DNA from: Saccharophagus sp. K07
Lineage (GTDB): Bacteria; Pseudomonadota; Gammaproteobacteria; Pseudomonadales; Cellvibrionaceae
Reading direction: 5' to 3'
DNA: 64,000 bases
Assembly (NCBI RefSeq): GCF_014336955.1
Contig: NZ_QRAI01000003.1
Span: forward strand, 248,001-312,000
In this document: piece by piece, positions 35,034 to 40,655 of the stretch
Numbering within the stretch: the first letter of the stretch is position 1
How the letters are laid out: every line of letters begins with the position of its first letter
Translations under genes and position numbers: made by a program
The notes under the pieces: generated by a model
Database searches by the model: none
The model's input: the letters and a program-made list of their open reading frames with translations, nothing else
What the model was told of the DNA's origin: nothing

Positions 35034-36314
35034 TCATGCTATTCGAAAATCCAGATTCAACCGTTTCCAATGATTGCGAAGCCACTGCTTGTGGTTTTCA
35101 TTCATCGGCAGGTTTTTTAAAGCTTCCGGCCATAAAGTTCTGGCTTTTTCCATCACATCGTTCAGATGCCATCTGATGGCTCGCCACGGAATATCAGAAT
35201 GTTCGGACCAATATTGAAAATGCTGTAGAGATACTTGATACCAATCCTTGGTTTTACCAAGATTGAGGGCAAACTGTCGTTCATTTTCCACGTAAACACC
35301 GGTGGTTACTATGTCGTAAGAAGGTGAAAGCCGCGGAGTTATTTTGTCCATATAAATAAGGCTCCAGTTTTTCAAATGTGCATCACCATTGGCGAGTAGA
35401 ACGTTCACAAGTAGCCGTCTAGCAAGCTGTTGCGCATCAGCCAAACCATCACCAGAAAATAAGTAAAGAACACGAGCGATTTGCTCATAGTTGGCTGTAT
35501 TATATTTTTCGTGCGGATATTTAACAAAAACCTGTGCAAAATCCTCCATATGAATCCGTTTGCCTTCTTCTCTATCAAAACGTTTAATTGCAAACGCTAA
35601 ATTTTCTTGCGGAAGATTGATTGGCGGTAAATTAACAAGCTTGTCCAGAGCAACAAGTTTGATATCCGGAATATTAACACCAACCATCGCAGCAAGTGAC
35701 ATAGAGCTGTATTCATTGAGCGGAACATCTTTATGCTGTGTAGACGGCGTTTTCACAATCCAGTCGCCCAACTCACCTTCCGCGGGCAGATTATATCGCC
35801 CATCCTTTTTGTTCATGGAGAACTTCATTTGGACACCGGCAAGAGAAAATCTATTTTTTTCTCCGCCTTTTAGGATTTTTTTTCCGAATTTTACCGGGTT
35901 TACCTCAGCATTGATATTTAACGCTGCTCTCGGAACCTCTTCCGGGTCCATAGGTTCTGCCATTAATGCGCCAGGTAAATCTCGGCCGAGATATGAAAAA
36001 ATATGAAACTCGTTATCCACATGAACTTTCAAGCTGTGAGCGATATACTCTCTTAAAGATCCTTCTGGCATTAAATTCGATAGTATTGGATGGAGTCGTT
36101 GTGAACGCACCAGTGGTTCAGCCATGAACTTAACTGAGCGAGGAAATTTTGGATGGGTGATTAAACTCAATGTTGGTCGCAACGAGTCCTGTCGATATTC
36201 ACGAGCAAAACTCAGTATATTTCTGCCATTAAGGTATCCCGTCAAGTAACCTATTAGCTTTCCATGTAACGTAAGTTTGAGTACGTTAACTTCATTTTCT
36301 CTTCCCTGACTCAT
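35034..36314 (-). CDS. hipA: HipA-family serine/threonine kinase toxin
   Basis: The 426-residue kinase has the P-loop-like SLAGVQMKFS, the catalytic NGDAHLKNWSLIY with the catalytic aspartate, and the metal-binding LSPSYDIVTTG. HipA toxins phosphorylate glutamyl-tRNA synthetase and slow growth; the exact target here is unknown. Its start overlaps the hipB stop by 4 bases. The catalytic motifs appear intact, so the toxin could be active. Confidence 0.9.
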   Translation of the reverse strand: MSQGRENEVNVLKLTLHGKLIGYLTGYLNGRNILSFAREYRQDSLRPTLSLITHPKFPRSVKFMAEPLVRSQRLHPILSNLMPEGSLREYIAHSLKVHVDNEFHIFSYLGRDLPGALMAEPMDPEEVPRAALNINAEVNPVKFGKKILKGGEKNRFSLAGVQMKFSMNKKDGRYNLPAEGELGDWIVKTPSTQHKDVPLNEYSSMSLAAMVGVNIPDIKLVALDKLVNLPPINLPQENLAFAIKRFDREEGKRIHMEDFAQVFVKYPHEKYNTANYEQIARVLYLFSGDGLADAQQLARRLLVNVLLANGDAHLKNWSLIYMDKITPRLSPSYDIVTTGVYVENERQFALNLGKTKDWYQVSLQHFQYWSEHSDIPWRAIRWHLNDVMEKARTLWPEALKNLPMNENHKQWLRNHWKRLNLDFRIA

Positions 36315-36622
36315 GGATCATCTCCTAATAACCCATCCCATGGATCGTCAGATACAGGTTTTTTGCTTTCATTAGGCTGTTCGCTCTCTTCGGATTTCTC
36401 GCTAAGGATCGCTATGACAGTGTCGAGTTTTTCGTTTGGTATCAAGAGAATTTCGCTATTAAGCCCCTTGGCGATCAGTTCGAGCGTGTCAAGCCTTGGG
36501 TTTCCCTTCGACTCCAAAAGTTGGTACTGCTGGCGGGAGATGCCTATGCGGGACGGCATATCACTTTGCTTAAACTTCAAGGCCAAACGCCGCGCTTTTA
36601 TCTGTTGCAAAAGAGATTTCAT
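36311..36622 (-). CDS. hipB: HipB-like antitoxin and autorepressor
   Basis: The 103-residue helix-turn-helix protein (MKSLLQQIKARRLALKFKQSDMPSRIGISRQQYQLLES) has a cro/CI-type fold and an acidic tail (about residues 72-103) with SEESEQPNESKKP. I use ATG 36622; the frame upstream runs into the operator region. Five palindromic operators precede it, consistent with autoregulation. It should bind HipA and neutralise it. Confidence 0.85.
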   Translation of the reverse strand: MKSLLQQIKARRLALKFKQSDMPSRIGISRQQYQLLESKGNPRLDTLELIAKGLNSEILLIPNEKLDTVIAILSEKSEESEQPNESKKPVSDDPWDGLLGDDP

Positions 36623-36625
36623 TGG

Positions 36626-36781
36626 GAAACATATATGTTGCATTTCAATTTGTAAGCAACATATTAGTTGCCAACCAACCAAAAAGCAACATATAGATTG
36701 CTTTCAAGGTTGTCACTACAGTAAAGCAATATATAAATTGCTTTTCACATTATAACTGCGGAAATGCAACTTTTTTGTTGC
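36626..36781. promoter_or_regulatory. Array of five phased HipB-type operators
   Basis: Five 16-base sites of the form GCAA-N8-TTGC start at 36626, 36656, 36686, 36726 and 36766. The first (GAAACATATATGTTGC) has one mismatch; the others read GCAACATATTAGTTGC, GCAACATATAGATTGC, GCAATATATAAATTGC and GCAACTTTTTTGTTGC. The start-to-start steps are 30, 30, 40 and 40 bases, near whole turns of the helix. They lie directly before hipB and reach to the gap before the hydrolase at 36891. Confidence 0.85.
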
Positions 36782-36890
36782 TTTTGGATCAATCTACCAG
36801 CTCCGCTACTGCCTTAGACTCGAAAGGACGGCGCGGACTCTACAGCCAAACACAAATCCATAACCATTCGACAAACACGAATAACTACAA

Positions 36891-37817
36891 ATGAAATCTT
36901 TCCTGCTTATCTGTATCCCCTTCATTTTTTCTTGCTCCATCATCAGCACAACTTCAACATTGCCAGAAAGAGTCGCTCTTTCAAGAAGCGACGGCTCTAC
37001 AATTGACTTTTATATGAAATTTGATTCTGCCAAAACACTTTTGCTTTATTTACAAGGTTCCGACTGCAACAGTGTTTTGCACGATAGATTTTTGCAAGAC
37101 CATATCGAAAAGCTCTGGCCTTCTGCAGATGTACTATTGGTTGAGAAACGTGGCATCACTGCAGATTTACCGCCTTCTTTTGACGCAGCGCGATCAGGTT
37201 GCCCCCAAGAATATATTCAGCACGATAATCCCGAACAAAGAGTTACGGATCTGAAAAAGGCGCTTAATTCAGTCCAGCAAAAATATGCTTACCAAAAAGT
37301 GATAGCCCTTGGAGGCAGCGAGGGCGCTCAAATAGCTGCAATGATTGCAGCAGAATCCGATTTAATAGACGCTGCAGTTCTGATCAATGCCGGCGGCCGC
37401 TATTTTCTGGATGATGTACTTCACAATATCCGTTTGACCACGCCGGAGGATATTCTAGAGGAAGAAATCGCCGGCTTCAGCGAATTTGCCAAGCAAATTG
37501 TTATGGGAGATTTTTTTGAGTTGGAGGTCAGCAATCACGGTTATAAATGGTGGCGCAATATGTTGACTTACGATATGCAAAATACCTTGACCTCAATTCG
37601 CATCCCCACTCTTATTATTCAAGCAGGCCAGGATAAATCTGTATCAGCGGAAAATGCTACTGCCATGGTGGAAAACCTTAAAGCTTCGGGAAAAAGCAAT
37701 CTCGACTTTGTGGTTTACCCCGATTTGGATCACGGCCTAATAAACACAGATGGAATTTCAAAAGCGGAACAGGTGGTTGAAGATATTCACCACTGGTTAA
37801 AACTGCATATCAAATAA
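36891..37817 (+). CDS. Alpha/beta hydrolase, possibly lipoprotein
   Basis: The 308-residue protein has an N-terminal signal that ends FIFSCS, so lipidation at Cys15 is possible but the lipobox is poor. A hydrolase triad can be proposed: Ser143 in ALGGSEGAQ, Asp248 in QAGQDKS and His281 in LDHGL. The LLYLQGSDCN strand is typical of the oxyanion-hole region. The substrate is unknown. It is at the right edge of the AT-rich accessory block. Confidence 0.78.
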   Translation: MKSFLLICIPFIFSCSIISTTSTLPERVALSRSDGSTIDFYMKFDSAKTLLLYLQGSDCNSVLHDRFLQDHIEKLWPSADVLLVEKRGITADLPPSFDAARSGCPQEYIQHDNPEQRVTDLKKALNSVQQKYAYQKVIALGGSEGAQIAAMIAAESDLIDAAVLINAGGRYFLDDVLHNIRLTTPEDILEEEIAGFSEFAKQIVMGDFFELEVSNHGYKWWRNMLTYDMQNTLTSIRIPTLIIQAGQDKSVSAENATAMVENLKASGKSNLDFVVYPDLDHGLINTDGISKAEQVVEDIHHWLKLHIK

Positions 37818-39632: not shown

Positions 39633-40655
39633 ATGAAACGATTGATTGCCAGGGCCTTATTCGCGGCCTCAACCAGCTTATTAAGCTTAGGGGCTTTTGC
39701 TTTACCCTTAAGTGAGTACAACCTGATCGTTGCGGAGGATTACACGCACCAATCCTCTTCTGTCGGCGGTAAGATTTTCGTCGGCGGCAACGTCATCGCC
39801 AAAAATTCTCTTGACCTCGGTCTGGATCTAACCAAAAGCCCCACTTTGGATTCGCTGACGGTTGTCGGCAATATCACCGGCAACAACAGCTGGTTCAATG
39901 TACAGGCAGGCAATGTGGTCACCGGTGGTAATGTGAGCGGCACCGGCTTTAATTTCAACGGCGGCGGTAAACTGCTCAAGGGCAACCAGAGCGACCTGCA
40001 AAATCAACGCGACAACATCATCAGCGAGCTCTACGATACCTCTGAACGCTACAGCAACCTGACTGCCAACGGCAGTGTTGTTGCGAGTCCCAACGTTGTA
40101 TCTTTGAACTATTCCGGTTCCGACAGCGTGGCTGTGTTTTCCGTGAACGCGGCTGATGTTTTCCGTCAAAACGCTCGTCTGGAGTTGAATGCCGGTTCCG
40201 CTGAAACCGTCATCATCAACGTTTCCACCGCTCACCTGGTTGGCGGCGCGGGCCAATTGGCTTATGACTTCACCGCTCCTGGCGGAATTAATTTCACCAG
40301 CGGTTTTGCCGCTAACGCCGATGCTTTCAACCTGGGCGCCAGCAATATCCTTTGGAACTTCTACGATGCGACCTATCTGAACCTGCAAGGCCTGGATACT
40401 TTCCGCGGTTCTTTGCTGGCTATAGGCGCAGATTTGGTGAATCTGGGCACAGCTGACGGTTCTATCGCCGTAAAATCGCTGATCCAAAATCGTCAGATCC
40501 ACAACTATACATTTGTGCCACCATCAGAAGTTCCTCTGCCGGCTCCGTTGCAATTTATGTTGATCGGCATGGCATGCTTGTTCGGCTTGCAACAGTGGCG
40601 CAAGCGTAAGCAAGCAACCACAGAAGAAATTAATGCAGTCCCTGCATTGGCTTGA
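39633..40655 (+). CDS. Choice-of-anchor A protein with VPLPA-CTERM sorting signal
   Basis: A 340-residue secreted protein with a signal peptide (cut after GAFA), an extracellular beta-rich choice-of-anchor A domain, and a C-terminal tripartite sorting signal: EVPLPAP (near residue 300), a hydrophobic helix, then basic RKRKQ. The motif is VPLPA-type, not the usual PEP. Its sorting enzyme is almost certainly the exosortase at 43238-44767, and PrsT at 40853-43231 is the usual companion. The terminator 40669-40694 follows. Confidence 0.85.
   Translation: MKRLIARALFAASTSLLSLGAFALPLSEYNLIVAEDYTHQSSSVGGKIFVGGNVIAKNSLDLGLDLTKSPTLDSLTVVGNITGNNSWFNVQAGNVVTGGNVSGTGFNFNGGGKLLKGNQSDLQNQRDNIISELYDTSERYSNLTANGSVVASPNVVSLNYSGSDSVAVFSVNAADVFRQNARLELNAGSAETVIINVSTAHLVGGAGQLAYDFTAPGGINFTSGFAANADAFNLGASNILWNFYDATYLNLQGLDTFRGSLLAIGADLVNLGTADGSIAVKSLIQNRQIHNYTFVPPSEVPLPAPLQFMLIGMACLFGLQQWRKRKQATTEEINAVPALA

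Follow-up and report, generated by a model that had tools for sequence, protein, structure and literature searches.

A conserved array of putative HipB operators with helix-related spacing ahead of hipBA in Saccharophagus sp. K07

The hipBA locus of Saccharophagus sp. K07 was analysed in a 64-kb stretch of DNA (64,000 nt, hereafter the window), in which the gap between hipB on the minus strand and a divergent gene on the plus strand is filled by an array of five 16-bp palindromes located directly 5′ of hipB. The hipB gene (36311–36622, minus strand) codes for a helix-turn-helix antitoxin identified by its HTH_3 domain (PF01381, E 1.2e-7) and by ortholog alignment, and its start is the ATG at 36620–36622, as in the orthologs. 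It lies directly upstream of hipA (35034–36314, minus strand) with a 4-base overlap, the gene order of a HipBA module, and hipA codes for a HipA-family kinase toxin carrying HipA_C (PF07804, E 1.4e-47) and Couple_hipA (PF13657, E 3.9e-14) domains. Residues S157, D311, H313, K315, N316, Y333 and D334 of HipA align with identical residues of E. coli HipA, which we take to be the P-loop serine and the kinase catalytic residues. Similarly, HipB W95 aligns with the C-terminal Trp of E. coli HipB, and 90 of the 94 HipB proteins compared have a Trp among their 14 C-terminal residues. Judged by gene content and motifs, the array belongs to a type II toxin-antitoxin system of the HipBA kind. The divergent gene (36891–37817, plus strand) codes for an alpha/beta hydrolase, a neighbour with no demonstrated part in the system. 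Two more distant HipA-family matches were detected in the same genome (G000:C4:470247-471212 and G000:C3:596781-597191), and a protein with a choice-of-anchor A/ice-binding-like adhesive domain is encoded nearby at 39633–40655.

The sites were numbered outward from hipB, start at 36626, 36656, 36686, 36726 and 36766, and are not assigned to either strand. O1 (36626–36641, GAAACATATATGTTGC) is nearest to hipB and ends 4 bases ahead of its ATG, which would place it within the hipB 5′ leader. It is followed by O2 (36656–36671) and O3 (36686–36701), and by two distal sites, O4 (36726–36741), 40 bp from O3, and O5 (36766–36781), 40 bp from O4. Thus, the start-to-start steps from O1 to O5 are 30, 30, 40 and 40 bp. 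The exact GCAA-N8-TTGC sequence is present in four of the five sites (O2–O5), and O1 reads GAAA-N8-TTGC with one mismatch, GAAAC/GTTTC being a frequent alternative form of this motif in the ortholog upstream regions. The five palindromes and their 30/30/40/40 steps, first noticed in a sequence-only reading of this DNA, were therefore confirmed, with the correction that the first site begins with GAAA rather than GCAA.

The bare pattern was not enriched in the 64-kb window, where 50 matches with at most one mismatch were found versus 53.75 expected. Four of the six exact matches in the window fall in the array, within 126 bp, and a pair of exact sites stepped by 30 bp is found at a single place in the 4.27-Mb genome. 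A symmetric position weight matrix built from 197 sites in ortholog upstream regions, with the window left out of training, scored O1 to O5 at 19.5, 25.3, 25.4, 26.2 and 20.1 bits, respectively, and gave no other hit of ≥8 bits in the 64 kb. In the 93 orthologs, which were also the training set of the matrix, 288 hits of ≥8 bits were obtained versus 0.9 per shuffled set. It was the clustering of the sites, not the bare pattern, that exceeded chance. Genome-wide, the pattern gave 47 hits; among six picked by eye, the best site lay in a long ORF for five and between ORFs for one. A single 16.7-bit site between ORFs at G000:C4:81726 (L165, about position 1527) may be another genomic target of HipB.

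To follow the array beyond the window, hipBA loci were collected from genomes with HipA matches (87 of 145 relatives), from class genomes with HipB matches (26 of 369) and from the best 80 of 466 HipA relatives in a genome collection. This gave 114 loci, 112 of them with a hipB match (all except L067 and L096), and removal of 18 near-duplicates left 94 distinct loci. Weaker hits (L021–L031 and L048–L058) were kept outside the site analysis, and neither the HipA clusters nor the tree include L045 or L047. A scan of plasmids gave 93 records with E values of 1e-60 or lower, a single one of which exceeded 60% identity, and L148–L158 were drawn from these plasmid relatives. In viral contigs, a single-protein scan gave 0 matches and an alignment scan gave two relatives at 38% identity.

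Two to seven such sites were found upstream of 92 of the 94 distinct hipBA loci. At a matrix score of ≥2, three sites (40 loci) and four sites (37 loci) were the most frequent, followed by two sites in 11 loci, five in 3, and zero, one and seven in a single locus each; the zero count belongs to L046, whose operators have another sequence. Five or more sites were present at 4 of the 94 loci, namely the window, L088 and the same-genus L097 with five each and L095 with seven. Five sites are therefore at the high end of the range, neither unique nor exceptional. At L095, from a Kistimonas metagenome-assembled genome, the seven operators upstream of hipB include five successive 30-bp steps. Of the 86 loci scored, 43 have a distal site no more than 62 bp upstream of O3 and the other 43 have none there, which indicates that the distal sites are dispensable. 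Among five alphaproteobacterial relatives, L157 and L158 (36–38% HipA identity) carry four palindromes in two pairs, with steps of 30, 44, 30 and 31, 43, 31 bp, and L154, L155 and L156 showed no clear array.

Comparison of the 87 loci containing both O2 and O3 pointed to a hipBA promoter built into these two sites. The putative −10 element, TAATAT (36661–36666, minus strand), forms the center of O2, and the putative −35 element, TTGCTT (36684–36689, minus strand), overlaps the hipB-proximal half of O3, its right half in the hipB orientation, 17 bp from the −10. The spacer was 17 bp in 79 loci, 16 bp in 4 and 18 bp in 4. O2 was taken to be whichever site fell between −62 and −38, a range shorter than one step that leaves at most one candidate in nearly every locus; the start anchor of L120 appears to be one step off, and its O2 assignment is probably wrong. 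TTG was present in the right half of O3 in 83 of 87 loci, compared to 22 of 91 for O2 and 2 of 74 for O1, the last being assigned in 74 of the 94 loci. Conversely, the central hexamer was TAATAT at 66 of 91 O2 sites but at 1 of 87 O3, 1 of 74 O1 and 0 of 53 distal sites. A similar bias was observed for A at the second central base (88/91 for O2, 10/87 for O3, 4/74 for O1 and 8/53 for distal sites). This site-specific conservation is the pattern expected of a −35 and a −10, which we infer these elements to be. Against this reading, the putative promoter agrees with the σ70 consensus in only 7 of 12 positions, and a consensus scanner listed another weak pair instead. Since O3 and O2 accommodate the putative −35 and −10 with a 16–18-bp spacer in 87 of 87 loci, the 30-bp O3–O2 step is partly a matter of promoter geometry. 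Separately, an AGGAG-like ribosome site was seen in the O1 stretch of 10 of the 94 loci, nine of them titled Desulfuromonadales or other Deltaproteobacteria; at L064, L088, L098, L118, L119, L122, L125, L129 and L138 this site lies inside O1, whose right half is degenerate.

The identity of the ligand was approached through HipB itself, for which 434 Cro was the best solved match (E 6.9e-5). In the alignment, HipB residue 30 falls opposite the first of the paired Gln residues in the 434 Cro recognition helix. Of the 94 HipB proteins, 93 carry Arg as residue 30, and each of the 93 loci with matrix sites has G as its outer operator base. Gln at position 30 was found together with outer A at L046 (whose HipB is the same as that of plasmid L150), at L143/L144 and at the Shewanella plasmid locus L153. 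The operators of these Gln-type loci begin with ACA (ACAA half-sites), at steps of 51, 30 and 29 bp in L046/L150, 51 or 52, 29 and 30 bp in L143/L144, and 30, 30 and 31 bp in L153. Arg-G and Gln-A are textbook residue-base pairings, and Gln28 of 434 reads A. The joint change of residue 30 and the outer base points to HipB as the ligand of the sites and suggests a simple rule for predicting HipB specificity. Gln/A may represent the ancestral state, and the change may have happened only once, its placement being weak on long branches. L151 combines Arg and outer G with otherwise different half-sites, which were missed by the generic palindrome search and found with a hand-written pattern. Taken together, the held-out matrix scores and the recurrence of the same sites at related loci bear out the earlier proposal that these are hipBA operators, and the five palindromes ahead of hipB are very probably binding sites of the HipB antitoxin. 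Comparative support extends to the predicted binding of HipB to operators in its own promoter and to the predicted repression.

The distances between neighboring sites fell into a few narrow classes. Among 220 neighbor steps, 216 were 29–31, 40–41 or 47–51 bp long, in windows that were set after the data had been seen; the others measured 27, 57, 61 and 242 bp, those of 57 and 61 bp looking like arrays with one site missing. The 53 steps upstream of O3, from 43 loci, avoided 31–39 and 42–46 bp and were 30 bp in 6 cases (from only two loci, L095 and L097), 40 or 41 bp in 8 and 47–51 bp in 39. With loci collapsed at 75, 80 and 85% HipA identity, 0 of 5000 uniform draws from a simple 28–62-bp null reached the observed periodicity. 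The best-fit period was 9.45–9.55 bp for the distal steps and 9.8 bp for all steps, shorter than 10.5 bp. At 10.5 bp per turn, each step carries a phase of −51° at 30 bp, −69° to −51° at 40–40.5 bp and −120° at 49 bp. The five sites of the window accordingly point to 0°, −51°, −103°, −171° and +120°, and they coincide only at 10.0 bp per turn. Thus, the proposal that the sites are helically phased on about the same face of DNA was largely right on phasing, given the discrete step classes about one helical turn apart across the 94 loci, but overstated the shared face, which is only approximate, since the drift of 50–120° per step does not fit a single face of relaxed B-DNA. By this comparison, helix-related spacing is supported and a single face is not.

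The even spacing might also be the product of promoter geometry and common descent rather than of cooperative phasing, the 17-bp promoter spacer dictating the O3–O2 step and inheritance accounting for the others. The O3–O2 step is indeed fixed by the −35/−10 overlap, the loci are related, the class of the O3–O4 step shows a minimum of only 7 changes across the loci that carry O4 (on a rapidly built, weakly supported tree with 20 of 89 inner branches starred), and the best period is 9.5–9.8 rather than 10.5 bp. However, the O2–O1 and distal steps are free of the promoter yet fall on the same step classes, and at every inferred change the step jumped from one class to another. Within the genus, aligning the window with L097 leaves a 10-nt gap in each of the O3–O4 and O4–O5 intervals, and these two gaps turn the 40, 40 steps of the window into 30, 30. 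Together with the outcome of the uniform draws, this leaves descent and geometry as an unlikely explanation, albeit one to be taken seriously.

Other readings of the palindromes fared worse. If the sites bound another regulator, or acted as RNA hairpins or terminators, a terminator-like hairpin such as the one scored on the plus strand for O5 with the adjoining T-run (36766–36790) would be of note; however, one terminator-like site was found versus 0.6 expected, and the palindromes accompany hipB in 92 of 94 loci, overlie its promoter and change their outer base together with HipB residue 30, which makes this idea highly implausible. The suggestion that the operators also control the hydrolase at 36891, as a bidirectional switch, drew on the divergent arrangement of the hydrolase and hipBA in 2 of 3 genus genomes and on a 9/12 promoter-like match on the plus strand overlapping O4. 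Hydrolase matches among the compared loci were found only here and in the same-genus genome G001 (L008, L097), a GFA fragment following the hydrolase in both L097 and the window, and the sites occur elsewhere without a hydrolase match, although many flanks extend only 1–3 kb upstream of hipB and would hide a more distant copy. In addition, 109 bp separate the end of O5 from the start of the hydrolase gene, promoter-like matches are about as many as expected by chance (2 versus 1.2), and the −35 of the match overlapping O4, the only one near the sites on the hydrolase strand, lies in a 10-nt stretch missing from L097. A hydrolase promoter looked for near the sites with the scanner and the L097 alignment was not established, and control of the hydrolase by the operators was left unsupported and appears quite improbable.

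We therefore favor, with considerable confidence, the reading of the palindromes as autoregulatory operators of HipBA with GCAA/GAAA half-sites, in which the promoter lies in O3 and O2, O1 lies in the leader, and O4 and O5 are helix-spaced additions, with predicted binding by HipB and predicted cooperativity. The sites, their overlap with the promoter, the discrete spacing, the variable site number and the joint change of residue and base emerge from sequence comparison, and from them we infer binding, cooperativity and the direction of the effect. With O3 and O2 built over the −35 and −10 and O1 just ahead of the hipB start codon, HipB would block the polymerase directly. The repressing species would probably be HipB with HipA bound, as in E. 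coli. O4 and O5 would serve as add-on distal sites at helix-related steps, through which neighboring HipB-HipA complexes may touch and fill the array together, resulting in sharper repression. HipA-HipA contacts between neighboring complexes were reportedly described by Schumacher in 2015. A bolder and rather doubtful extension would have HipB-HipA form an ordered helical stack in which steps of about three, four or five turns bring each complex up against its predecessor, the number of distal sites (0 to 4 beyond the core three) rising and falling as an evolutionary dial for the steepness of repression and thereby the frequency of dormant cells. The loci offer some 90 naturally occurring versions of a single autoregulatory array, with two to seven sites, steps that change by roughly one turn and one joint change of residue and base, and they open to direct testing how operator number and phasing act in toxin-antitoxin repression.

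On this evidence, the array is best described as HipB autoregulation of the known kind in a well conserved variant form, whose operator sequence and spacing are its own; the accessible portions of the open-licence literature contained no description of this operator class. Phage 434 operators have ACAA half-sites and are 14 bp long, and thus resemble the sites of the Gln-bearing HipB relatives in half-site but differ from the 16-bp sites here in length, and phage 434 has no kinase partner. E. coli hipBA shares with this locus the hipB-hipA operon and several spaced palindromes with 8-bp centers upstream of hipB, although identity to the E. coli proteins is 26% for HipA and 27% for HipB. In the one E. 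coli genome compared, four exact TATCC-N8-GGATA sites lie at −134, −106, −67 and −39, with steps of 28, 39 and 28 bp, versus five sites and steps of 30, 30, 40 and 40 bp here. The five sites read GMAA-N8-TTGC and none has the E. coli-type half-sites, in agreement with the sequence-only reading of more sites than at the E. coli hip promoter and of a different sequence. According to the accessible parts of two reports, the four operators of the E. coli hip promoter are bound cooperatively with a 70-degree bend (PMC3376134, PMC3920265). The accessible part of the work on Legionella HipBST (PMC10653801) describes multiple evenly spaced inverted repeats upstream of hipB, whose number matters for gel shifts, and in this arrangement of palindromic sites 5′ of hipB it resembles the array here. 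As far as that account goes, HipBST differs in having three sites, 53-bp gaps, six-base half-sites and three genes with a separate HipS (PMC10653801), whereas in Saccharophagus sp. K07 the N-terminal Couple_hipA domain, absent from HipT, is fused in the same 426-aa HipA and hipB directly precedes hipA.
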